Below are positions 39,424 to 51,973 of a DNA stretch of 55,740 nucleotides, one piece after another. Location of the stretch: assembly GCF_030019085.1 (NCBI RefSeq), contig NZ_JASEFJ010000011.1, positions 1 through 55,740 on the forward strand. Reading direction: 5' to 3'. Source of the stretch: Methanoculleus sp. (GTDB lineage: Archaea; Halobacteriota; Methanomicrobia; Methanomicrobiales; Methanoculleaceae). The stretch's first letter is position 1. Each line of letters starts with the position of its first letter. Both the position numbers and the translations under genes were made by a program. The notes beneath the pieces are model-generated. The model saw only the letters and a program-made list of their open reading frames with translations. It was not told where the DNA came from and made no database searches.

Positions 39424-40290
39424 ATGGCACCAGACCTAAAAAGGAGCAGGAATACCCTCATTGTAGCGGCGTCGCTGCTCGTGATCGCGGTGGCGTGCGT
39501 CGTCACCGCCGCCTGCACGGAACCCGGATCACCGGTCCGTGAGCCAGGACCCTCCCTGGCCGGGACTTCCTGGACTCTCGACTCATACATTGCCGGTAAT
39601 GGCACGCTCGTTCCTGCCCTGGCCGGGACCGAGGTTACTGCCAGTTTCAGTGACGATGGCAGCCTCACCGGTTCTGCCGGGTGCAACTCCTACGGGACCA
39701 TCTACCACCTCGACGGTGCAAACCTCAGCATCGAGCCACCGGGCAGCACAAAGATGTACTGCAGCGAACCGCCGGGCATCATGGAGCAGGAGAACCGGTA
39801 TCTTGCCCTGCTCACAGAGGTCGCTTCAGTGCGACTGGAGGGGGACCGCCTGATCCTCACAGACGCTGACGGCACCGACCTGCTCTTCTTTGAGCAGGCC
39901 ACGTCGTCACCTGAACTCTCACCTGTTGGAACGGAGTGGGTCCTCCAGGGTTACATAAGCCCCGAGAAAGAGGCGATCTCTTCTGTGATAGCCGGCACCA
40001 CAGTCACGGCCACCTTCACCTCCGGTGGGAATCTCACCGGTTCTGCCGGGTGCAACCGATACGGTGGCGGCTACACACTTGACGGTGCAAACCTCTCGGT
40101 TTCATCGCTCTTCAGCACCCTCATCTACTGTGAGGAGCCAGAAGGCGTCATGGACCAGGAGGCGCTTTATCTCGCCCTCCTTGAAGACGTCTCTTCCTGG
40201 AGACTGGAGGGTGGACGTCTGATCCTCACAGACGCTGACGGCACTGACCTGCTCTTCTTTGAGCAGGCGCAGGTCGAGCAGGAGTCGTGA
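39424..40290 (+). CDS. Lipoprotein with two META/HslJ domains
   Basis: 288 residues. The N-terminal signal segment (NTLIVAASLLVIAVACVVTAAC) ends in a lipobox-like TAAC, so it is probably exported and lipid-anchored. Two META domains follow (about 45-155 and 160-280). Both carry the family pattern SWTLDSYI/EWVLQGYI, LTGSAGCN, YLALL and RLILTDADGTDLLFFEQA. The last 18-residue stretch is identical in both copies, and much of the DNA also matches, so the duplication looks recent. The META/HslJ role is poorly known; in bacteria it is linked to stress and novobiocin resistance. Confidence 0.85.
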   Translation: MAPDLKRSRNTLIVAASLLVIAVACVVTAACTEPGSPVREPGPSLAGTSWTLDSYIAGNGTLVPALAGTEVTASFSDDGSLTGSAGCNSYGTIYHLDGANLSIEPPGSTKMYCSEPPGIMEQENRYLALLTEVASVRLEGDRLILTDADGTDLLFFEQATSSPELSPVGTEWVLQGYISPEKEAISSVIAGTTVTATFTSGGNLTGSAGCNRYGGGYTLDGANLSVSSLFSTLIYCEEPEGVMDQEALYLALLEDVSSWRLEGGRLILTDADGTDLLFFEQAQVEQES

Positions 40291-40312: not shown

Positions 40313-40687
40313 TTATGAACAGTGCACCTGGGCAAACAGCCAGGTGTGACCTGTTCCCCGGAGGACTGCGGTCAGCAACCCTTCCCGGGCCCCACCTCCA
40401 ACCATATTGAATCTCACATCTGCCATTACCCAGGCCACCGTTCCCTCGGCGCTTATATGGATGCTGGAGATCTCAAGCCTGATCAGGTCCGGTGGCGCAG
40501 AGTCCTGTTCAAGGTAGCGCTGGAGTGCCTCCTTCCCGACCACCTTATCGCCGGCATCGCTCCAGAAACCACGGAAATCGACGTCAGTGAGCGCCAGAAT
40601 CCCGCCGACGTCTTTCCTGCCGAGAGCCTCCACCAGGCGCTGGATCACCGTCATGACCTGGTCGCGTGTCTGTTCACTGACTCGCAT
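40313..40687 (-). CDS. NTF2-like/SnoaL-like protein
   Basis: A 124-residue protein of the cone-shaped NTF2-like fold as judged from pattern: an N-terminal helix (DQVMTVIQRLVEALGRKDVGGILALTDVDFRGF), then KEALQRYLEQ and alternating strands (LIRLEISSIHISAEGTVAWVMADVRF, LTAVLRGTGHTWLFAQVHCS). Such proteins often occur as small accessory or ligand-binding proteins. It is the last gene after moeA, 27 nt downstream, so it may share that operon. Function not predictable. Confidence 0.72.
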   Translation of the reverse strand: MRVSEQTRDQVMTVIQRLVEALGRKDVGGILALTDVDFRGFWSDAGDKVVGKEALQRYLEQDSAPPDLIRLEISSIHISAEGTVAWVMADVRFNMVGGGAREGLLTAVLRGTGHTWLFAQVHCS

Positions 40688-40714
40688 GAAGGAGGGTCAT
40701 GTCAAAAAACGATA

Positions 40715-42553
40715 TTAGTTTCGAGCAGGTGCAGCGTCCCCGGGATTGAGCGGTTCATCGCCCGAGCCTCCGGCCAGTTCCCGTCCTGTGGCCAGGAGGG
40801 ACGCGCGGAATTCCCGTGACCTCGCTGTACGGATGAGGGCCGCAACACCCCCCTCTGCAGCAACCTCCTGCCTTATCACCAGGTTAAAGGACTCGTAACC
40901 GATCGGGGTAAAACTGAGCAGTCCTGCCTCCCGCGCTTCGCCGACGGAGCAGACCCGCATCTCCGCACCAGCTGCCAGGTCTGGGTCCTGCGGTGGGTGA
41001 CCAATCCCCTCCCTCTCAAGCCAGGCATCAAGGAGGGCCCGTGCCGCCTGGCTCTTCGGGCGGTTGGAAACCCTCAGCAACGCAAGCGTCTCAGGATCCG
41101 GTTCACCTGTTGAGGCGATCCCGAGTTCCGCCATGCCAACCGGCAGCCGCAGGAGGTTCACGCCAGGCAGGTAACGGAGCACCAGATCGTTCCAGGCAGA
41201 TTCCATGTCCGGGAGAACGACCGATGCCACGTGGCATGTATTCGCACGCAGAGCAAGTACCGCTCCGATCGTCGAGGCGTTGCAGCAATGGAGCAGGTAG
41301 CCAGAATCCTGGAGCCGGTTTCCCAGTTCAGCGATGACCGGGTCACGCTTCCCTACGCAAACAACTGTCCGCGCGACCGTGGCCGAGGGGGCGGTGAGAC
41401 TTACACGCACCCCCTCTCCCGCCTCTCTCCCTTCGCGCCCGGCGGGGATGTGGATATACCCGTTTGCCCGGACAACCGACATCTGGATACCGCCGCCGCG
41501 TGGATGGGGCGTTGCCCAGCAGGTGCCGTTTACCTGCCCGACCGATACCGGGACGAACTCATCGAACCCGAGATCGGACGTCAGCCTTCTGGCCAGCCTG
41601 GCGTCCATCTCCTCGATGAGGGGCGGCGCGAGCCCCCACCACAGAAGCAGGTTTGCGACAACCTCCCGGAGTACCGTCTGCGCTGAAACAGGGTATCCTG
41701 GCATCCCGAAGACCGGTTTCCCATCGAGATCTGCAAGCAGCACCGATTTTCCGGGCCTCATTGCGATCCCGTGGAAGACGATCTCGCCGAGTCTGGCGAC
41801 GGCGTCGCGGGAGTGGTCGCGACTGCCGGTCGAAGTCCCTGCTGAGACGAGGACGAGATCGTTCTCGGCGACCGCTTCGGCGACCGTTTCCAGGATCCGG
41901 TCAGGGTCGTCCGGCACGACCCCGTAGCGGTGGCAGGTAGCGCCCATACCCCTCAGATACGCCTCCGCCATCAGGGTGTTTGTCTCAACCGTCTGCCCCG
42001 GTCGGGGCAGCGTGCCTGGCGGGACGAGGTCGCTACCCGTCGGGATGATTCCTACCCTGACCGCCCGCACCCTTAAACTGGTTATCCCGTAGGTTGCGAG
42101 CGCACCGATATCAGAAGGCCGGATCTGGTGGCCTTTCGGGAGCACGAGTTCTCCAGCCTGGATATCCTCGCCGGTACGGCGGATGTTCTGCCCCGGCGCG
42201 GCAGACTTCCGGATCCAGACACGACCGCCCTCTTCCCATGTATCCTCAACCATGATCACGGCGTCAAACGCCGGCGGGATCACATCGCCGGTGTTGATCC
42301 CGAGATACGTGAGAAGTGGCAGGGGTCGCTGATCCAGCGCTCCGAGCGTCTCGTGGCTCTTCACGGCGTAACCATCGAACTTTGCAATATCCGCTATCGG
42401 GACGGAATACTCTGCGTAGAGTGGCTCGGCGGTCACCCTGCCGACGGCGAGTTGTAAAGGCATGCTCTCCGCATGGCCCGAGGGTGGGAACCTCTGACGC
42501 ATGATCTCAAGCGCCCTTGATAGCGACGTAAGGTTAAGGTATCTCTGTGTCAT
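40715..42553 (-). CDS. moeA: MoeA molybdopterin molybdotransferase fused to a periplasmic-binding-like domain
   Basis: 612 residues from the ATG at 42553 (MTQRYLNLTSLSRALEIM); an extension to 42607 lies in the upstream gene. MoeA (about 1-400) inserts molybdenum or tungsten into the pterin cofactor. Seen: the FDGYAVKS motif, VLVSAGTSTGSRDHS, AMRPGKSVLLADLDGKPVFGMPGYPVSA, and C-terminal domain IV. Residues from about 410 to 600 form a LysR-substrate-like/PBP domain (SGYLLHCCNASTIGAVLALR, FTPIGYESFNLVIRQ), a known archaeal fusion that may sense the metal oxyanion. It lies in the operon divergent from fdhAB, and FdhA needs this cofactor. Confidence 0.9.
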   Translation of the reverse strand: MTQRYLNLTSLSRALEIMRQRFPPSGHAESMPLQLAVGRVTAEPLYAEYSVPIADIAKFDGYAVKSHETLGALDQRPLPLLTYLGINTGDVIPPAFDAVIMVEDTWEEGGRVWIRKSAAPGQNIRRTGEDIQAGELVLPKGHQIRPSDIGALATYGITSLRVRAVRVGIIPTGSDLVPPGTLPRPGQTVETNTLMAEAYLRGMGATCHRYGVVPDDPDRILETVAEAVAENDLVLVSAGTSTGSRDHSRDAVARLGEIVFHGIAMRPGKSVLLADLDGKPVFGMPGYPVSAQTVLREVVANLLLWWGLAPPLIEEMDARLARRLTSDLGFDEFVPVSVGQVNGTCWATPHPRGGGIQMSVVRANGYIHIPAGREGREAGEGVRVSLTAPSATVARTVVCVGKRDPVIAELGNRLQDSGYLLHCCNASTIGAVLALRANTCHVASVVLPDMESAWNDLVLRYLPGVNLLRLPVGMAELGIASTGEPDPETLALLRVSNRPKSQAARALLDAWLEREGIGHPPQDPDLAAGAEMRVCSVGEAREAGLLSFTPIGYESFNLVIRQEVAAEGGVAALIRTARSREFRASLLATGRELAGGSGDEPLNPGDAAPARN

Positions 42554-43389
42554 ATCCCTGGATCCAGGAAAGGCCCGTCCTCTATCGGCCGGGTGCAAAC
42601 CCTGCACTCAAACAGTGTCTCCTCCCTCGCAGCAAAGATCTCGTCGACGTCGTCCGGCAGGTCCAGGAGACGGAATACGACCTCTTTTCCCGAACATGAA
42701 AGAACAAAAGAGTCTCCTCCAGGATACCTGAACCGCCGGTTTCCCGGTGTCGCGCCGGTGATGCCGATAAGCGCATCCGTGGTGCAGGGGTCGGCGCCCG
42801 GCGTAACCACGAGATCAGGACGCCGCAGGTCGCAGTCCAGGATGCGTGTTGCCGCCTCCGCGATCCGCACCCCGGTAGCCACCCCCGTGCAGACCTCTCC
42901 ATGATAGTTCGCGGCCTCGCGGATGAGGCTGGCGCGGTAGTCGGCGGGCTTCATCTTCTGGATCTTCTCCGTACGGTCGTGCCCGGTTGCGGAGAAGACG
43001 CAGTCCCACCCCGGCTGGTAAGGTTTGATGTCGATCACCGGTGTTCCATCGATCAGGTCGAGATGCTCAAGCAGAAGGTATCGACCTTCGCGCACGCCGA
43101 GCAGTTGAACAACCGAGATCGATAGAGGATTCGGCCGTGCCGGAGAGCGGAGAGAGAAGACGCCTTTCTCCGGGAGGTCGTTTGAGATCTTTCGCGCGAC
43201 CGCCTTCAGGACGTTCCGGTCTGCCTGGTGGAGCCAGCAGACCAGGATCAGGTGCGAGTTCTCCTCGATACCATCGAGCCCGGCCGCGTAGCCTTGAAAG
43301 ATCTCAACCTCCGCACTGACGCCCTGGATGGGCATATCGCTCCTGGATCGGATGCTTGAATGTACGAGCCCGATGGGTGAGAGTTCCAT
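42550..43389 (-). CDS. TrmO/TsaA-type methyltransferase fused to an FmdE-like domain
   Basis: 279 residues. Residues 1 to about 135 match the TsaA/UPF0066 barrel (MELSPIGLVHSSIRSRSDMP, LRSPARPNPLSISVVQLLGVREG, GTPVIDIKPYQPGWD), which in TrmO methylates the t6A37 base of tRNA. Residues of about 150-270 match an FmdE domain (NYHGEVCTGVATGVRIAEAA, VVTPGADPCTTDALIGITGATPGN). A C-terminal CRVC could bind metal. The fusion and its place between an FmdE gene and moeA suggest the methyltransferase acts in pterin-cofactor or metal handling rather than only on tRNA; that is inference. It overlaps moeA by 4 nt. Confidence 0.8.
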   Translation of the reverse strand: MELSPIGLVHSSIRSRSDMPIQGVSAEVEIFQGYAAGLDGIEENSHLILVCWLHQADRNVLKAVARKISNDLPEKGVFSLRSPARPNPLSISVVQLLGVREGRYLLLEHLDLIDGTPVIDIKPYQPGWDCVFSATGHDRTEKIQKMKPADYRASLIREAANYHGEVCTGVATGVRIAEAATRILDCDLRRPDLVVTPGADPCTTDALIGITGATPGNRRFRYPGGDSFVLSCSGKEVVFRLLDLPDDVDEIFAAREETLFECRVCTRPIEDGPFLDPGI

Positions 43390-43445
43390 GTGGTGCCTTC
43401 TGTGCCGACGGATTCAGGTGCTGCATCGCTGGGCGATGCTAAATC

Positions 43446-44105
43446 TCAACTGATGGTCTTCTCGTAGTAGGATTGTGATCGGCAGTCGCTGCAGACGCCG
43501 TTGACAAGCATGTTGTCTGGAACTATCTCGCCGCAGATGGAGCAGACGGCGGATTTCCAGGGCAATTTCTGAGGAACCTTCACGCGCACGTGTTCGTGCG
43601 AGAGGAGGTCGCGTCCTGCATCGATGATCTCGTCGATCAGCGCGGTGCCCCGTGTCCTGGGGTCAAAGAGCGGGTCCTTTGTGTACCAGAGGGCAAACGT
43701 CGGATACCGCTGAATCTTTTCGCCGTCAAGGAAGACCCGGACACCGTTAACGTAGGGAGCGTTGGCCGGGCCGTTCATGGTGATGGCAAATTTCCCGATA
43801 GGGATCACGCGGAGGCGGTGGTTGCCGGTTGTACAGTGGGCGATCACCTGCAGGGCGTCCGGCAGACACTTTGTAGTCTCGCAGACAGCATAGATCTTCT
43901 CACCATCAGGCGGGTTCAGGAGTTCCAGGGCGTAGTCCACCATGTAGACCCCGACCAGGAGACCCGGGGCCGGGTATGTGTGAAACTCTATGCATCGCCT
44001 GAAGTCCTCTATCAACTCCGGAGATGTACCCCTTGATCTGAGACGCGCCTCGATATCTTCCCATGTATGATTCAGTCTCGGTTGCACGTGAGAGTGTTTG
44101 ATCAT
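43446..44105 (-). CDS. FmdE-family protein with C-terminal zinc ribbon
   Basis: 219 residues. The N-terminal FmdE domain contains EFHTYPAPGLLVGVYMVDYALELL, YAVCETTKCLPDALQVIAHCTTGNHRLRV (conserved Cys pairs) and GKFAITM. The C-terminal zinc-ribbon-like part is CSICGEIVPDN...CSDCRS (two CxxC pairs). FmdE was first named as subunit E of molybdenum formylmethanofuran dehydrogenase, but it is not part of the catalytic core and its function is unknown. It is the first gene of the minus-strand operon and divergent from fdhA. Confidence 0.85.
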   Translation of the reverse strand: MIKHSHVQPRLNHTWEDIEARLRSRGTSPELIEDFRRCIEFHTYPAPGLLVGVYMVDYALELLNPPDGEKIYAVCETTKCLPDALQVIAHCTTGNHRLRVIPIGKFAITMNGPANAPYVNGVRVFLDGEKIQRYPTFALWYTKDPLFDPRTRGTALIDEIIDAGRDLLSHEHVRVKVPQKLPWKSAVCSICGEIVPDNMLVNGVCSDCRSQSYYEKTIS

Positions 44106-44130
44106 AACCTGTTGTAAATATTTTGGATTG

Positions 44131-44161
44131 GTAAATCAGGTAAAGTTTACTCTCTCAGAGA
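44131..44161 (-). promoter_or_regulatory. Candidate operator upstream of the FmdE gene
   Basis: Two inverted repeats lie 26-56 nt before the FmdE ATG: GTAAA-N10-TTTAC (44131-44150) and the palindrome TCTCT-C-AGAGA (44151-44161). They are candidates for control of the Mo-cofactor operon. The regulator is unknown. Confidence 0.3.
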
Positions 44162-44261
44162 GGCCATCGCGTCGTATCAATCAGATGCCATTTTGTGACC
44201 CAATTCCGGATCCTGTTGCGAATGTCGGATTTGATGGGATCCGGGCATTAAAAAATCAAAT

Positions 44262-44315
44262 ATATGTTGTAAGGTAGATCCATATGTTAAAACAATATGT
44301 TTAAACTTATATACT
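44262..44315 (+). promoter_or_regulatory. fdhA promoter with three ATATGTT repeats
   Basis: The heptamer ATATGTT occurs at 44262-44268, 44282-44288 and 44295-44301; the last two extend to ATATGTTAAAAC and ATATGTTTAAAC. They lie just upstream of the TATA box AACTTATATACT (about 44304-44315). The predicted transcription start is near 44336, giving a leader of about 70 nt. This looks like an activator or repressor array controlling fdhAB. Confidence 0.55.
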
Positions 44316-44340
44316 ACTGAGTAGAGTAAACCTACTGTGG

Positions 44341-44364
44341 GCATGCCTGGCATTCCTGGCATGC
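44341..44364 (+). other. Hairpin in the fdhA 5' leader
   Basis: Inverted repeat GCATGCC-N10-GGCATGC (44341-44347 and 44358-44364) just after the predicted transcription start. It also contains a direct repeat CCTGGCAT (44346-44353 and 44355-44362). It would form a stem-loop at the 5' end of the mRNA, followed by the ribosome-binding site GGGAG 7 nt before the ATG. It could stabilise the message or act as an operator. Confidence 0.5.
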
Positions 44365-44404
44365 TTTGCAACCCATGTTGAATGTAACAACCGGGAGAAT
44401 GTGA

Positions 44405-46474
44405 ATGACAGATACCAGTGAAAAATTGCGCTACGTTCACACAACCTGCCCCTACTGTGGTGTAGGGTGCGGGCTGAACCTTGTGGTGAGCGATGGCAAA
44501 CTCGTTGGGGTCGAACCATACAAGAGAACCCCGATCAACGAGGGGAAACTCTGTCCCAAGGGAATGACCTGCTGGGAGTTCGTCCAGAGCCCTGACAGGC
44601 TTACAAAACCGCTTATCAAGAAGAACGGTGAATTTGTCGAAGCGACCTGGGATGAGGCGCTCGACCTCGTGGCCTCGAAGTTCAAAGAGACATACGAGAA
44701 GTACGGGCCGAAATCCCTCGGTTTCCAGGTCTCGTGCCGCACGCCTAACGAGGAATGCTACATCATGCAGAAACTCGCCAGGGTGGCCTTCAAGACGAAC
44801 AACGTCGACAACTGCGCGCGCATCTGCCACGGGCCGTCCGTCGCCGGGCTCTCGCTCTCTTTCGGCTCCGGTGCCGCGACGAACCCCTTCGAGGACGTCC
44901 TGAACGCGGATGTCATCTTCATGATCGGGGCGAACACCATTGAAGCACACCCGCTCGCTGGACGCCGGATTGTTCAGGCCAAGAAGGCAGGGAAGACGAT
45001 CATCGTCTGCGACCCGCGCTACACGCCCACGGCGCGCCTGGCCGACCACTACGTCCGCTATAACCCATCGACAAACATCGCCCTGATAAACTCGATCATG
45101 TACTGGATCATCCAGCAGAATCTCCATGATAAGGAGTTCATCGAGAAGAGGACGACCGGATTTGAGGAACTGCAGAAGACCGTTGAGAAGTACGCGGATG
45201 TCGAGTCGATCACCGGTGTTCCAACTGAGAGGGTCAAGGAGATCGCGCGGATATATGCCAGCGCCAGGAACGCCGTGATCATCTACTGTCTGGGTATCAC
45301 GGAACTTACAACCGGGACTGACAACGTCAGGTCGCTCGGGAACCTCGCGATGCTTACCGGCAACGTCGGCAGGCCTGGAACCGGTGTCAACCCGCTTCGT
45401 GGCCAGAACAACGTCCAGGGCGCCTGTGACATGGGTGCTTACCCGAACGTCTACTCCGGCTACCAGAAATGCGAGGACGACGCTACCCGCAAGCGGATGG
45501 AGGAACTCTGGGGCGTCACCGGTCTTCCAGGCGAATACGGTGCGACCCTGGTCGAGCAGATCAAGCAGTGCGGCGACCCGATCAGGGCGATGTACATATT
45601 TGCGCTCAACCCCGTCGTCTCCTACCCCGACTCGAACCTTGTGATGAGCTCGCTTGAGAAACTCGATTTCCTTGTCGTGCAGGACATCTTCATGACCGAA
45701 ACGGCGAAGTACGCCGACGTGATCCTGCCAGGCGTCTCCTTTGCCGAGAAGGACGGGACATTCACCAGCGGTGAGCGGCGTGTCAACCGTGTCCGCAAGG
45801 CCGTGGAACCGCCGGGTGAGGCAAGGCCCGACTGGGAGATCTTTGTTGACCTCGCCCACAGACTTGGTCTCAAGGGATTCGACTTCAACTCGCCGGAGGA
45901 CATCTGGAATGACGTGCGGCGGGTCACCCCGTCGATGGCCGGTATCTCCTACGAGAGGATGGAGAAGCCCGAGTCACTACACTGGCCCTGCCCGACTCTG
46001 GAGCACCCGGGGACACCGATCCTGCACCGCGAGAAGTTCTCGTCGGCAGACGGCCTCGGGCATTTCTTCGGTATCGAGTATCGGCCACCTGCGGAGGTTG
46101 CTGACGCTGAGTATCCGTTCACCCTGATGACCGGACGCCTGCTCTTCCACTACCACACCCGGACTCAGACCGGACGGGCGAAGATCCTCCACCACGAGGT
46201 GCCCGAAGCCTACGTGCAGATCAACACGGAAGATGCAGCGCGGTTGAATATCAAGAACGGGGAGAAGATCCGGCTCCGCAGCAGGCGCGGAGATGCGGTG
46301 GCTGTGGCCAGGGTGACCGACGAGGTTGGGCCCGGTGTGCTGATGATGACGATGCACTTCAGCGGTGAAGGGTCTGTGAACCGGCTGACGAACACCGCGC
46401 TCGATCCGATGTCCAAGATGCCGGAGTTGAAGCACAGTGCGGTTGCCGTCGAGAAGATAACGGAGGTGCAGTGA
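44405..46474 (+). CDS. fdhA: Formate dehydrogenase alpha subunit FdhA
   Basis: 689 residues, a molybdopterin oxidoreductase that takes electrons from formate to CO2. N-terminal [4Fe-4S] ligands are Cys15, Cys18, Cys22 and Cys50 (CPYCGVGC...LCPKGM). The metal ligand is Cys141, followed by His142 (NCARICHGPSVAGL), the position of selenocysteine in some formate dehydrogenases. The downstream cofactor-binding domain includes NTEDAARLNIKNGEKIRLRSRRGDAV. No twin-arginine signal, so it is cytoplasmic. With FdhB it feeds electrons to F420 and, in methanogens, to heterodisulfide reductase. Confidence 0.96.
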   Translation: MTDTSEKLRYVHTTCPYCGVGCGLNLVVSDGKLVGVEPYKRTPINEGKLCPKGMTCWEFVQSPDRLTKPLIKKNGEFVEATWDEALDLVASKFKETYEKYGPKSLGFQVSCRTPNEECYIMQKLARVAFKTNNVDNCARICHGPSVAGLSLSFGSGAATNPFEDVLNADVIFMIGANTIEAHPLAGRRIVQAKKAGKTIIVCDPRYTPTARLADHYVRYNPSTNIALINSIMYWIIQQNLHDKEFIEKRTTGFEELQKTVEKYADVESITGVPTERVKEIARIYASARNAVIIYCLGITELTTGTDNVRSLGNLAMLTGNVGRPGTGVNPLRGQNNVQGACDMGAYPNVYSGYQKCEDDATRKRMEELWGVTGLPGEYGATLVEQIKQCGDPIRAMYIFALNPVVSYPDSNLVMSSLEKLDFLVVQDIFMTETAKYADVILPGVSFAEKDGTFTSGERRVNRVRKAVEPPGEARPDWEIFVDLAHRLGLKGFDFNSPEDIWNDVRRVTPSMAGISYERMEKPESLHWPCPTLEHPGTPILHREKFSSADGLGHFFGIEYRPPAEVADAEYPFTLMTGRLLFHYHTRTQTGRAKILHHEVPEAYVQINTEDAARLNIKNGEKIRLRSRRGDAVAVARVTDEVGPGVLMMTMHFSGEGSVNRLTNTALDPMSKMPELKHSAVAVEKITEVQ

Positions 46475-46475
46475 G

Positions 46476-47714
46476 ATGGCAGCAAAGGGAGATATGCTAT
46501 ACGCCTGGACAACGAGCCCCGATATTGCCGGCGTCGCTGAGTGCGGCGGTGCGGTGACCGGGCTGCTCAAGTTTGCCCTGGAGAACGGTATCGTCGATGC
46601 CGTGCTGGCGGTGAAGAAAGGTGTGGACATCTACGATGCGATTCCTACGCTCGTCACCGACCCCGCGGATATGGCTGAGACGGCCGGCTCGCTCCACTGC
46701 GGGACGCTCCTGCTCTCGAAACTGCTCAAGAAGTATCTTGACGGCGCCGAGAATATGCGCATCGGGATCACGGTTAAGGGTTGCGATGCGATGGGGCTCT
46801 ACGAGCTTGCAAAGCGTAACCAGGTAAACCTGGACAACGTTCTGATGATCGGTGTGAACTGCGGTGGTTCTGTCAGCCCTGTGACCGCCCGGAAGATGAT
46901 CCGCGAGAAGTTCGGGGTTGACCCGGACGATGTCGTCAAGGAGGAGATCGACAAGGGTCAGTTCATCATCCAGACGAAAGACGGCCAGCACAAGGGCATC
47001 TCGATGGACGAGCTCGAGGACGAGGGATACGGCCGCCGTCCGAACTGCCGTCGCTGCAAGATGAAAGTCCCGCGTCAGGCGGACCTTGCCTGCGGTAACT
47101 GGGGTGTCATTGGCGATAAGGCAGGGAAGGCGACCTTCGTTGAGGTCTGCTCCGATAGGGGCGCTGACCTCCTCAGCAGGGCGGTGAAAGCCGGGGCCAT
47201 TGCTACGGAGCCTGCAAACCCGAAGGGTGTCGAGATCCGCGGCAAGGTCGAGAACTCGATGCTGAAACTCGGCGACAAGTGGCGGAACCGCTACTTCGAG
47301 AGTCTGGGCGAGGGCAAGGAGCGTCTCCAGAAGATCATGGAAGACTCCTCCCGGTGCACCAAGTGCTACGCCTGCATCGAGCACTGTCCGATCTGCTACT
47401 GCGTTGAGTGCAGTACGAAGAAGACTTACCTCGTTCCGCCAGGAGTGCTCCCCGTGCCGTTTATGTTCCACCTGATCCGCTACGCCCATGTGGCGGACTC
47501 GTGTGTCAACTGCGGCCAGTGCGAGGAGGACTGCCCGATGGAGATCGCGAACTCGCTCTACATGCATTCCCTGCAGGTGGAGATGGAGAAGATGTTCGGT
47601 CATACCCCTGGCGTGAACATGGAACTCCCGGTGCTTGCGCTTGTTGAAGAGCATGCCGAGCGTGAGCGGCTTGCCTCAACTGGAAGCGACCAGATCTTCG
47701 ATATCTTCAAGTAA
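46476..47714 (+). CDS. fdhB: Formate dehydrogenase beta subunit FdhB (F420-reducing)
   Basis: 412 residues. The FrhB/FdhB-type core (AGVAECGGAVTGLLKFALENGIVDAVLAV, then GITVKGCDAMGLYELAKRNQ and VNCGGSVSP) carries the FAD and F420 site. The C-terminal iron-sulfur part has CTKCYACIEHCPICYC and CVNCGQCEEDCP. The ATG follows the fdhA stop by one base, with an ideal GGAGGTG ribosome-binding site inside the fdhA end. It ends at the 47751 hairpin. It reduces F420 with formate-derived electrons. Confidence 0.96.
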   Translation: MAAKGDMLYAWTTSPDIAGVAECGGAVTGLLKFALENGIVDAVLAVKKGVDIYDAIPTLVTDPADMAETAGSLHCGTLLLSKLLKKYLDGAENMRIGITVKGCDAMGLYELAKRNQVNLDNVLMIGVNCGGSVSPVTARKMIREKFGVDPDDVVKEEIDKGQFIIQTKDGQHKGISMDELEDEGYGRRPNCRRCKMKVPRQADLACGNWGVIGDKAGKATFVEVCSDRGADLLSRAVKAGAIATEPANPKGVEIRGKVENSMLKLGDKWRNRYFESLGEGKERLQKIMEDSSRCTKCYACIEHCPICYCVECSTKKTYLVPPGVLPVPFMFHLIRYAHVADSCVNCGQCEEDCPMEIANSLYMHSLQVEMEKMFGHTPGVNMELPVLALVEEHAERERLASTGSDQIFDIFK

Positions 47715-47780: not shown

Positions 47781-47900
47781 CTTCGCGAGGGTGTCATTGC
47801 GCCCGTGCCGGCGGAGGTGATTTTTTACGAAGAAAACAGGCAGAATGTCCTCGGCGGGAGGGGGATGAATGCCGTCGGGTGGCGGATCCTGTTTATTTAG
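47781..47900 (+). pseudogene. Possible aldehyde ferredoxin oxidoreductase N-terminal remnant
   Basis: A perfect ribosome-binding word GGAGGTGAT (47813-47821) overlaps a short open frame. The frame contains NVLGGRGMNA, like the GGRG stretch near the N-terminus of tungsten aldehyde ferredoxin oxidoreductases, and stops at 47900. The rest of the gene is absent. Low confidence; the motif is short. The surrounding gap 47715-48277 otherwise holds a hairpin and repeat copy E. Confidence 0.2.
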
Positions 47901-47999
47901 CGTGTGCGATAAACTTGAGGTTTCGAGCGTTCCACCCCGCTGGCGCCTCGCCCAACCACGATACCCCCCGAGTCTTTATGCTCCGGATACCGTTTACTC

Positions 48000-48120
48000 C
48001 TGCACACCGACGCCGTCTCCGGCGCCCGGATCACCACCCCCTCAGCCACTCCCCGGGATGGCGATTCTCCATCGATACGGTGCCAGAGGACAACCCCTGC
48101 CTCCCGCGTCAGCGGTCGTG
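48000..48120 (-). repeat. Dispersed intergenic repeat, copy E (short)
   Basis: Read on the minus strand it includes GTATCGATGGAGAATCGCC, identical over most of its length to the core of copies A and B, with CGCTGACGCGGGAGGCAGG on one side. It lies in the gap before the nuclease-helicase gene. An open frame extending that gene back to 47879 runs through it but is not considered coding. Confidence 0.55.
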
Positions 48121-48277
48121 TGATGTGGTTTGCCGCTTCGTCCATAGAAAGATGTTCCCGGCGGCACGCCTGGATCCTTTCCCACCGGCCCCGGAAAACC
48201 CCCGGCGGAGACTTTTTCCTGCTCCCGGAGAAACCGTTGAGAGAGATTCCCCTTTTTTTTCCCGGGAAGAGAGATCC

Positions 48278-51200
48278 ATGCCGCACTACAACCTCAGCCC
48301 ATCGCTCATCGGCCGGTTCTTCTACCATGACTGCGAACGCTACCTCCGATACCACGCAACCCCGGAACAGGAACGGGATGCCGCCGGTATCCCGCCGGCG
48401 GCGGTCGAGACCGGCCCCGTGACCCGGGCGCTCCTCGAGGCCGGGATCCGCTGGGAGGAAGAGGTCGTCTGCCAGAGGGTCGCTGGGCGGGTGCTCGTCC
48501 CCGACGGCGCCGGCCCCATCACCGACCGCTCCTTCTCCATCGAGGAGACCTTCAACCTCCTCCCAAACCTTACCAGCGGGGAGGCGATATACCAGACGAC
48601 CATCCCGGTCTCCGTCCACTTCCTGCGCGGCTACGGGCTTGACCCGGAGGTGCACCGGTTCGCCCCCTGCCGTCCCGACCTGATCCTCATGGACGACCGC
48701 GGCCGGCTGCAGGTCATCGATATCAAGGCAAGCGAGGAACTCAGTATCAGCCACCGGATCCAGGCGACGCTCTACGCACTGATCCTGGATCACGCCCTCG
48801 CCCTCCTCGGACTCGATCTCAGGGTCGACCTCGATCACGCGGCCATCTGGCTCCACGGCCAGACCGCCCCCGAACCCTTCGACCTCCACCTCAACATCCG
48901 GGTTGTCGAGGAGTTCCTCCGCCACCGTCTCCCGGAGATCCTCAGCCGCCAGGCACCCGACCTCGCCTGGCACCTCACGTCCCGCTGCGAGTCCTGCGAG
49001 TTCTACCCGTACTGCCGTGCCGGGGCCGGGAGAACCGCGTCCGTCTCCCTGATCCCGGGTCTCTCCACCGCCGCACGCCGCTACCTCCGGGAGGCCGTGC
49101 CGCCGATCGAGACGCTGCCCGACCTTGCAGAGTTCCTCAACGATCCGAAAGCCGAACCTTACCTGGACGGTTGCGGTTCGCTTGCCGGAGAGCGCGAACA
49201 CCTCCAGGCGGTCGTCCGGGCGCTCCTTTCGGGCGAGGTCGTCCCGCTCCCCGCGAGATCGCACGCCCTCCCCGTCCACGAGGATATCGCCATCATCCTG
49301 ACGCTCCAGAGCGACCCGGTCTCCGGGCTGATATACGCCCTCGGGTTCCGGCGGATCGGGGGAAGAGAGGTCTACGGCACCCCCGCCCGCGAGGAGATCC
49401 ATATCGCTGCCGACCCCGCCGATACCACACGCGTCCGCCGGGAGTTCATCCGCGGACTCCTTGCTGACCTTGAGGCCGTGGAGACCTACAACCGCGGCCG
49501 CGACTGGAAGGATCAGAGATCCCTCCAGACCTACGTCTACGACACCTACGAAGAGGCTCTCTTCACCCGGCTCCTCGACGACGCCATGGATGACCCGGAC
49601 ATCTCAGAAGAGGCGCTCAGGCTCCGGTTCTACTACCAGGACGCCGGGATCGCGGCCGCTTCCAGTCACCCGGAGACCACCGTCTCCTATCCTCTCGTCG
49701 TCCTCACCCGCGAGATCCGGCGGCTGCTCGCCCTCCCCGTCCCCTTCTCGCTCCGTCTCCCCGAAGTGCTTGATGCGATCCCCTCGTCCCGGTTCCACTA
49801 CCGCCTCTCGCCCGGCCCCCTCTTCTGGAACGAGCACAACAACGCCATGAAGGCCGACGCCATACTGCTTGCCTGGCACGGCAACCGGCCGGAGGCTCTC
49901 GACTGGATCCGCCATGAGGTATCCCGCCGGCTGCTCGCCGCCGGCAGCGTGCTTGAAGGGCTGCGCGAACGTGTGAGCGATCGTCTGCAACGCTGGCCGG
50001 AGAGGTTCCGGTTCCCCCGCCCCTTCGAGGCCGCGACCCCTGAGATATCCCGGCTTCTCTTCATAACGGAGTACGAGTCGTTCATGGGCGCACGCCGGGT
50101 CCAGGACCTCCGCAGCAGGCCGCGGGAGGTGCGTCTCCGGGAGGGGATCAGCATACCGGTCGAGAGAGCGGAGGGGAACTTCTGGCGACTCCTCCGCCCC
50201 CTCGACCTTGCGGTCTTTGAACGCTCGCGCTCGTTCAGTTACCTCCTCGTTCCCGAGGGCGAGGAGGTGGCGTTTGACGATCTGCGCTACCGGAGCAGCG
50301 CAAGCCCCGGCGGGGCCGGGGTCGCGTTTGCCCGCGTCCACGACACCATCGTCGATTATGCCGCCGGACTGGTGAAGGGGGTTGTGCTGGAGGTCCGGTA
50401 TCCCCCGAACCGCCCGCCGATAGAGCGCGGGGTGCTCCACCCCCGGTTCACCGACTTCAACGCCCCCAGGATGATCGAGAGGCTGCTCTCCCTGGACGGC
50501 GACCCGGAGAACGGGTTCATCCGGCTCCTCCGCGACCCCCGCGGGTTTGCCGCGCCCCTCCCGGCGCTCCCGGCGCCGGTCGATGATACCGGGTTTACGA
50601 GGAGCCAGGAGAGGGCGTTCCGGCACATGACGGAGAACCGGCTGACCCTGGTCTGGGGGCCGCCCGGGACCGGGAAGACCCATTTCCTGGCGACGGCCAT
50701 CGTCTCGCTCATGCGGGCGCAGCGTCTCCGGGTCGGGGTGGCGGGGTTCACCCACGCCGCCGTCGAGAACCTGCTCCTGAAGGTCCAGGGGATGACCGCA
50801 TCCTTCCCGGTCTACAAACTCCGGGAGGTCCGGACACCCGGGGCGGATCGGAGCCTCGCGGTTCTCGGGCATGACCGTGCCGGCGACCTTGCCGGCTACC
50901 CCGGGTTCCTGATCGGCGGGACGGTGCACGCGTTTGAGAGGCTCGAGAGGCTCCTTCCCGCACTCGACCTCCTCGTCGTAGACGAGGCCTCGCAGATGCG
51001 CCCGGCCGACCTTGCGATGGTCTTCCCGATGCTCTCAGCGGCGGGACGACTTGTTCTTGCCGGCGACGACCTCCAGCTCCCGCCGGTGATCCAGGGGCGC
51101 TACCCGGCGCCTGAGGACGGGTTGCCGGGGCTGGAGGACTCGATCTTTGCCTACCTCCGGCACCGCGACGACCCGGAGGATCCGGTCTACACCTGCCAGC

Positions 51201-51973
51201 TCCTGGAGAACTGGCGGATGAACCGGACACTGTCCCTCTTCCCGGCGGAGACGCTCTACGGCAGGGGCTACGCCCCGGCAACGGAGGAGGTTGCCCGGCG
51301 CCGGATCTACCTCGTTCCGGGGGAAGAGGAAGAGCCCTGGCTCGATCGTGTCATCGACCCCGACTACCCGCTCGTCCTCTGCGTTCTCGAGGGTGTCAGG
51401 ACGACGATCGAGAACCGGGTCGAGGCCGACCTGGTCGCGAGGGTTGCGGCGAGGCTTCGCGAACGCCTGATCGACCCCGAGACAGGGAGACCCTACGTGA
51501 CGCCGGAGTTCTGGCACCGGGGGCTCTTCATCGTCAGCCCGCACCACGCCCAGATAGGTGCGATCAAAGAGAGGCTTGCCGCACTCATCCCCGGCGACCG
51601 GTCGGTCTTTGTGGACACCGTCGACAGGATGCAGGGCCAGGAGGCGGACGCCGTGATCGTCAGTTACGGGGTGAGCGACGTCGAGACTGCTCTTGCCGAG
51701 GCGGAGTTCATATACAGCAGGAACCGGCTGAACGTCTCGCTCACCCGGAGCCGGGCGAAGTGTATCGTCTTCCTGCCGCGGCCGCTGCTTGAACCGCCGC
51801 TCGACGTGGTCTCAAACGATCGGAGCGGGAGGACGGGCTTTTCGCATATGCTCGACCTCCAGGAGTTCTGCCGGGAGGACGCGGCCCGGTTCGGCCTTGA
51901 TGAGGGTGTCTCGCTCACGGTGATGAGGGCGGAGAGCCCGCGATCTCCGAGCGGTAACGGACGAGCGATGTGA
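48278..51973 (+). CDS. Dna2-like PD-(D/E)XK nuclease-superfamily 1 helicase
   Basis: 1231 residues from the ATG at 48278 (GAAGAGAG upstream). The N-terminal RecB-like nuclease has LSPSLIGRFFYHDCERYLRYH, RPDLILMDD and VIDIKASEE (catalytic Asp/Lys). Cysteines Cys19, Cys237, Cys240 and Cys246 (CESCEFYPYC) form the iron-sulfur staple known from AddB, Cas4 and Dna2. The C-terminal SF1 helicase has Walker [10 protein letters not shown] (793-801), Walker B VVDEASQM (Asp902, Glu903), VDTVDRMQGQEADAVIVSYG and NRLNVSLTRSRAK. It likely processes DNA ends or flaps. It stands alone and its 3' end overlaps the convergent MFS gene by 59 nt. Confidence 0.88.
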   Translation: MPHYNLSPSLIGRFFYHDCERYLRYHATPEQERDAAGIPPAAVETGPVTRALLEAGIRWEEEVVCQRVAGRVLVPDGAGPITDRSFSIEETFNLLPNLTSGEAIYQTTIPVSVHFLRGYGLDPEVHRFAPCRPDLILMDDRGRLQVIDIKASEELSISHRIQATLYALILDHALALLGLDLRVDLDHAAIWLHGQTAPEPFDLHLNIRVVEEFLRHRLPEILSRQAPDLAWHLTSRCESCEFYPYCRAGAGRTASVSLIPGLSTAARRYLREAVPPIETLPDLAEFLNDPKAEPYLDGCGSLAGEREHLQAVVRALLSGEVVPLPARSHALPVHEDIAIILTLQSDPVSGLIYALGFRRIGGREVYGTPAREEIHIAADPADTTRVRREFIRGLLADLEAVETYNRGRDWKDQRSLQTYVYDTYEEALFTRLLDDAMDDPDISEEALRLRFYYQDAGIAAASSHPETTVSYPLVVLTREIRRLLALPVPFSLRLPEVLDAIPSSRFHYRLSPGPLFWNEHNNAMKADAILLAWHGNRPEALDWIRHEVSRRLLAAGSVLEGLRERVSDRLQRWPERFRFPRPFEAATPEISRLLFITEYESFMGARRVQDLRSRPREVRLREGISIPVERAEGNFWRLLRPLDLAVFERSRSFSYLLVPEGEEVAFDDLRYRSSASPGGAGVAFARVHDTIVDYAAGLVKGVVLEVRYPPNRPPIERGVLHPRFTDFNAPRMIERLLSLDGDPENGFIRLLRDPRGFAAPLPALPAPVDDTGFTRSQERAFRHMTENRLTLVWGPPGTGKTHFLATAIVSLMRAQRLRVGVAGFTHAAVENLLLKVQGMTASFPVYKLREVRTPGADRSLAVLGHDRAGDLAGYPGFLIGGTVHAFERLERLLPALDLLVVDEASQMRPADLAMVFPMLSAAGRLVLAGDDLQLPPVIQGRYPAPEDGLPGLEDSIFAYLRHRDDPEDPVYTCQLLENWRMNRTLSLFPAETLYGRGYAPATEEVARRRIYLVPGEEEEPWLDRVIDPDYPLVLCVLEGVRTTIENRVEADLVARVAARLRERLIDPETGRPYVTPEFWHRGLFIVSPHHAQIGAIKERLAALIPGDRSVFVDTVDRMQGQEADAVIVSYGVSDVETALAEAEFIYSRNRLNVSLTRSRAKCIVFLPRPLLEPPLDVVSNDRSGRTGFSHMLDLQEFCREDAARFGLDEGVSLTVMRAESPRSPSGNGRAM

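Follow-up and report, generated by a model that had tools for sequence, protein, structure and literature searches.

The genes fmdE, trmO-fmdE and moeA, which lie divergently from fdhAB in a Methanoculleus sp. genome, probably constitute an accessory maturation module dedicated to the class-I F420-linked formate dehydrogenase (FDH). The window, that is the whole stretch of DNA analysed, is 55,740 nucleotides long, and its features at this locus are as follows.

40313-40687, minus strand: SnoaL/NTF2-like gene, 27 bp after moeA (Pfam SnoaL_3, E=3.4e-13)
40715-42553, minus strand: moeA-PBP paralogue (Pfam MoeA_N, MoCF_biosynth, MoeA_C and PBP_like)
42550-43389, minus strand: trmO-fmdE fusion (TrmO_N domain, 1 to ~135; short FmdE core, ~155 to 279)
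43446-44105, minus strand: fmdE, first gene of the cluster (FmdE core and C-terminal CxxC-CxxC zinc finger)
44106-44404: divergent intergenic region between fmdE and fdhA, 299 bp
44307-44314: TATA-like box of fdhA
44341-44364: palindrome GCATGCC..GGCATGC in the fdhA leader
44405-46474, plus strand: fdhA, catalytic subunit of F420-linked FDH, class I (TIGR01591)
46476-47714, plus strand: fdhB, F420-reducing subunit (FrhB_FdhB_N and _C)

The order of minus-strand transcription is fmdE, trmO-fmdE, moeA-PBP and the SnoaL/NTF2-like gene, with fdhAB read in the opposite direction. All of the open reading frames named in the initial annotation are present at about the positions assigned to them, and their Pfam families match; judging from sequence and alignment, the start of moeA is probably ATG 42553, which overlaps the TGA of the fusion, and not GTG 42607. 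The same annotation had united four genes in a single operon divergent from fdhAB. Of these, fmdE, trmO-fmdE and moeA-PBP form a tight cluster, but the NTF2-like gene lies at variable distances from moeA, is missing in several loci and, among the loci examined, is confined to the genus apart from one sister genus, where it lies at some distance. Because of its variable spacing and absences it was dropped from the core set, and it is probably a bystander of the cluster. The genome (1.9 Mb) contains three FmdE domains, four MoeA, four TrmO and three FdhD, and the members of the locus are therefore extra paralogues.

The initial annotation named an unconserved linkage as grounds for refuting its proposal; the linkage of fmdE, trmO-fmdE and moeA with fdhAB was found to be conserved and is borne out by divergent arrangement, co-occurrence and co-loss. 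The divergent arrangement is kept across the genus and beyond. Class-I fdhA, fmdE and the fusion occur together in 33 of 35 genomes of the genus; the fusion is split into two frames in G040, and the locus-type moeA is found in 32 genomes, the missing case (G158) having its fusion at a contig end. Two genomes of the same genus, G063 (99% complete) and G088 (93%), are without class-I FdhA, the FDH-linked FmdE (FmdE-fdh), the fusion and the locus-type MoeA alike. The window's fdhA product scores well over the TIGR01591 Fdh-alpha cut-off (882.7 bits versus 666.25), and by identity to it the FdhA proteins of the order fall into two classes, class I at about 69% or more and the other at 53-57%; class II occurs without the FmdE-fdh gene set. 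When the genome sets for FmdE-fdh and class-I FdhA, compiled by hand, were compared over 200 genomes of the order, 73 had both, 3 FdhA only, 7 FmdE only and 117 neither (Fisher p 3e-42, not corrected for phylogeny). Most of the exceptions can be attributed to contig ends: class-I fdhA is truncated there in four of the seven FmdE-only genomes (G006, G023, G190 and G196), and all three FdhA-only cases are on small contigs. In a further FmdE-only genome, G113, decayed pieces of fdhAB adjoin fmdE and moeA. Among the fetched loci, 60 of 72 distinct FmdE-fdh genes (the duplicate locus L142 being excluded) diverge from class-I fdhA, within 1.5 kb in 56 cases, and fdhA is not nearby at L092, L103, L105 and L131.

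Given that most of these counts come from related genomes and are not phylogeny-corrected, one could envisage a neighbourhood that was simply inherited by descent, with no functional tie. We find this scarcely credible in view of the joint absence in G063 and G088, the decay of fdhAB in G113, and the fact that other families have these partners too, but differently ordered. The members of the set are not equally tied to the enzyme. Many Methanoregulaceae have FDH and FmdE yet no fusion, and that of G166 is broken, so FDH cannot depend on the fusion in every host. The core partner of class-I FDH is FmdE, and the fusion is dispensable.

The wider neighbourhood bears on what the set does. FdhD is the established FDH sulfurtransferase, and for that reason no other feature of the context speaks as strongly for late cofactor maturation as the position of its gene. 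In sister genera and other families, fdhD either separates the fusion from moeA or adjoins fdhAB, and in relatives of the genus it immediately follows fdhB. The window's genome carries fdhD elsewhere, outside this locus. The same islands contain genes for ModA, ModB and ModC (L071, L076), for formylmethanofuran dehydrogenase subunits including FwdB/D (L070, L073) and for DUF364, putatively a chelator of heavy metals (L070), and outside the order the fusion, MoeA, FdhD, FwdB, FwdD and FmdE-fdh make up one island in two genomes of family f14; in f7/g39 the fusion is without a Mo/W neighbour. These neighbours point to Mo/W cofactor assembly or delivery. The initial annotation had offered metal sensing or cofactor delivery for FdhA, and it is the second that the context supports, through the conserved linkage and the nearby FdhD, ModABC, Fwd and DUF364 genes.

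The MoeA paralogue retains its three MoeA domains and, in an alignment, the catalytic D59, D142, D228 and D259 of E. coli MoeA, with the changes E188D and K279R. It scores below the NCBIfam equivalog PRK14498 for MoeA-PBP (471 bits, cut-off 534), and the PBP motif AD.G.G, present in the other MoeA-PBP of the genome, is lost in the FDH-linked paralogues. The protein probably inserts Mo or W. The idea of a dedicated MoeA has an experimental precedent in Methylorubrum, where a W-FDH requires one of five MoeA paralogues, along with MobB and FdhD, but not the other four (PMC13197769). Like MoeA1 of Methylorubrum extorquens, the W insertase for FDH1 (PMC13197769), the locus MoeA is an extra paralogue tied to one FDH and accompanied by FdhD; unlike it, it belongs to another lineage and has a PBP-like C-terminal domain, present in degenerate form. 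FmdE is not mentioned in the Methylorubrum MoeA1 paper (PMC13197769).

The product of fmdE matches Pfam FmdE (PF02663; E=4.5e-28, 98.4 bits, cut-off 22.9), and its closest solved structure is 3d00 from Syntrophus (E=4e-27). FmdE-fdh is a distinct subfamily, its members being at least ~48% identical to the window's protein and the Fmd and Fec types ~30%. Its neighbour here is fdhA and not the fmd/fwd catalytic subunits, although some relatives also have fwd nearby; it thus differs from the fmdE of fmd operons (PMC2954224), being linked to FDH and not to formylmethanofuran dehydrogenase subunits. The two-domain layout and C-terminal zinc finger are shared with the Syntrophus protein Q2LQ23 (3d00). 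A zinc domain had been proposed from the outset, as a zinc ribbon, and full-length alignment with 3d00 corrects its type to a treble clef; in the available text of the structural paper (PMC2954224), the C-terminal domain of 3d00 is described as a treble clef and no zinc is present in the N-terminal domain. The core metal motif FHGHxC is absent from FmdE-fdh, which has FHTYPAPG instead, and as in 3d00 the core is probably metal-free. Across the family, FHGHxC occurs in many, not all, FmdE members. No NarJ/REMP-type molybdoenzyme chaperone family appeared among the Pfam or NCBIfam matches of the locus proteins, for which a chaperone role may be proposed only by analogy.

A different role for the zinc-finger FmdE, perhaps together with TrmO-FmdE, would be to sense metal or cofactor state and regulate the divergent fdhA and fmdE promoters. 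Regulation or metal sensing was suggested by the authors of the 3d00 structure in the available text of PMC2954224, and the CxxC-CxxC finger is kept in every FmdE-fdh relative (76 of 76 in a motif survey). An alignment of 29 genomes further shows that the divergent region is ~300 bp in all members of the genus and that the fdhA leader carries a conserved palindrome, GCATGYC..GRCATGC, with a small hairpin. The palindrome may be a regulatory site. It is, however, seen only in the genus and nothing links it to FmdE, and treble-clef fingers have many roles; the missing core metal motif also speaks against a sensor, and we consider this explanation unlikely. An RNA structure for the palindrome was considered and rejected, since the pairs are mostly one-sided or invariant, with little true covariation. 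An Rfam search of the divergent region gave nothing above threshold and one chance match below it.

The fusion contains both of its namesake domains (TrmO_N, E=2.1e-28; FmdE, E=2e-11, 44.5 bits, cut-off 22.9) and passes the TIGR00104 equivalog (120.2 bits, cut-off 93.25). An AlphaFold model of medium quality (pLDDT 64, 6 sequences), used for fold assignment only, was matched by Foldseek to 2nv4, AF0241 with AdoMet (E=3e-10), and to 2glz, an FmdE (E=4e-5). The residues that contact AdoMet in AF0241 (Q22, R82, D111 and K122) are all kept in the window's fusion as Q22, R81, D111 and K122, and in the FDH-linked fusions as a whole they are found in 38/41, 41/41, 41/41 and 41/41 proteins, respectively. 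The FmdE half has a variant of the metal motif, NYHGEVC, in which the His and Cys are kept, and a C..D motif. The protein therefore shares the Class VIII AdoMet fold, the AdoMet residues and the TIGR00104 score with TrmO/YaeB, the tRNA m6t6A enzyme (PMC4132733), but differs in that FmdE replaces the DPRxxY domain and in a context of Mo/W enzymes; there is no DPR in the fusion, whose C-terminus is the FmdE core.

The conserved AdoMet residues and the score over the TrmO equivalog cut-off would also suit an enzyme that modifies tRNA, with m6t6A or something similar, and so adjusts how Mo/W enzymes are translated to the state of the cofactor, and an RNA role is suggested for another archaeal TrmO clade, whose members neighbour RNase HI and Mrp and include open reading frames that start with RNase HI-like sequence. 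The DPRxxY C-terminal domain, however, is required in E. coli TrmO and absent from archaeal homologues, m6t6A was undetected in archaea, and the paper that gave TrmO its name voiced doubt about an m6t6A role there (PMC4132733). The genome moreover has three further TrmO copies, one of them in the RNase HI/Mrp clade. RNA methylation by the fusion is thus quite unlikely, and tRNA m6t6A, which the initial annotation had proposed as a readout for a deletion, finds no support, since the archaeal TrmO is without the DPRxxY domain and the modification was undetected in archaea.

Proteins with the same domain pair have been described as UPF0066-FmdE fusions (PMC2954224), and in Archaeoglobales and Methanosarcinales in PMC11237513; the available text of these two papers holds no report of a link to FDH. 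TrmO comes first and FmdE second in the fusions seen. A single clade for all TrmO-FmdE fusions was rejected (p-AU 3e-14): the fusion arose at least twice, the FDH-linked form having an origin separate from that of the transporter-linked form. A plasmid search with the fusion matched 195 records, all at <60% identity and none covering 80% of the protein.

Transporters figure in the surroundings of other TrmO and FmdE genes, and FmdE and TrmO-FmdE might accordingly serve metal supply and not cofactor assembly, by helping to deal with Mo, W or some other metal brought into the cell. In Methanoregulaceae, FmdE-TrmO pairs adjoin FecBCDE-type transporters, as does the fused form in four genomes of other families, and most FmdE genes adjoin metal transporters according to a published remark. 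The window's genome itself has two TrmO genes interleaved in a molybdate-type ABC operon (L171, TrmO-ModA-TrmO-ModB-ModC), an order repeated in G042 (L188), where ModB is over the TIGR02141 cut-off. No transporter is found at the window's locus, where the partners are FDH and MoeA, and metal supply seems very unlikely to us.

Seven TrmO paralogues have been reported in Methanoculleus marisnigri (PMC4132733). In the TrmO tree, the modABC-linked copies form one well-supported clade and the FDH-linked fusions another, and a large group is associated with Mrp and RNase HI. The third standalone TrmO of the window's genome lies beside aldehyde ferredoxin oxidoreductase (AOR) and Mrp (L118); it belongs to the Mrp/RNase HI clade, and its AOR neighbour may be incidental. 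A general association of archaeal TrmO with Mo/W genes was rejected: a Mo/W gene lies within ~3 kb in roughly a third of standalone loci, the others being beside Mrp and RNase HI or nothing relevant, and the Mo/W link is limited to some archaeal TrmO clades. We offer as a doubtful but conceivable extension that several archaeal TrmO/YaeB clades, including the fusion, are AdoMet methyltransferases of Mo/W metabolism and not tRNA enzymes, with FmdE as a metal- or cofactor-recognition partner; the methyl targets would then be the pterin cofactor, a carrier or the apo-enzyme.

In the maturation module that we favour, the MoeA paralogue would load the pterin of class-I FDH with Mo or W, and FdhD would sulfurate the metal. 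From gene context we infer that the zinc-finger FmdE, two-domain and of the 3d00 type, may handle the cofactor or act as a chaperone specifically for FDH, and that TrmO-FmdE may transfer methyl groups from AdoMet to a target in the same pathway, to which its FmdE domain, of the metal-binding type, would direct it. FmdE, TrmO, MoeA and the TrmO-FmdE architecture were already known; the FDH linkage, the co-loss and the dedicated MoeA are new, and an FDH-dedicated set lost together was not found in the available text of the literature examined.

One FmdE subfamily is thus tied to one FDH throughout the order, with the fusion and an extra MoeA in part of it. FmdE has been known as a gene since the 1990s, and the substrate of archaeal YaeB/TrmO has been a question since 2014; with the tie to FDH, the function of the one and the substrate of the other can be tested in a methanogen that grows on formate. 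Acetogens use FDH as their CO2-reducing Mo/W enzyme. An orphan fwdE without fwdABCD is conserved in 14 acetogens (PMC5039349), which, given that use of FDH, would fit a role of FmdE in FDH. Should FmdE prove to help FDH mature, this would offer a reason for the acetogens' orphan fwdE (PMC5039349), and it would supply a missing part for building CO2-reducing enzymes of this kind in foreign hosts.

The divergent region upstream of fdhA contains, at 44307-44397 of the window, a TATA box and a palindrome (GCATGYC..GRCATGC), both conserved across 29 genomes of the genus; a small GTTG..CAAC hairpin, found in the same interval and in 29 genomes of the genus, lies directly 5' of the fdhA ribosome site. 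No Rfam family was found for the conserved elements of this interval. The locus is flanked by two further genes:

39424-40290, tandem META-domain protein
47879-51973, downstream of fdhB, AAA/UvrD-like helicase of 1364 aa with a weak PD-(D/E)XK match

META genes are amplified beside the locus in most members of the genus. The slot after fdhB is occupied by the helicase in the window, whereas relatives (loci L039 and L055) carry fdhD there.

Only fragments of fdhA and fdhB are left in genome G113 (L130, 10856-11574), with the adjoining fmdE and moeA intact: a loss of the enzyme that is still under way. The trmO-fmdE gene of G166 is degenerate, with several stops (L090, 14618-15268), and that of G040 lies in two overlapping frames (L077, 9396-10069), reflecting either a sequencing error or fission. 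The islands at L070, L073 and L090 each hold two FDHs and two FmdE genes, as if each FDH had a separate FmdE.

A FecBCDE-type ABC transporter is adjoined by neighbouring, unfused fmdE and trmO genes at L110-L116, L127 and L167, and again lies alongside fused fmdE and trmO at L199-L202, which belong to other families. Elsewhere in the window's genome, two TrmO paralogues are interspersed with molybdate/tungstate ABC genes (L171, 9513-13254, G000:C58) in the operon order TrmO-ModA-TrmO-ModB-ModC, which is identical in a second genome (L188, G042). At G000:C57, a standalone TrmO gene, also adjoining a SAMP1/MoaD-like protein and Mrp, is convergent with an aldehyde ferredoxin oxidoreductase gene (L118, 9191-13095). 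At L169 (8753-9610) and L170 (8500-9423), an RNase HI-like start leads into a TrmO domain within a single ORF; this arrangement suggests that they encode RNase HI-TrmO fusions and that this TrmO clade may have an RNA role.
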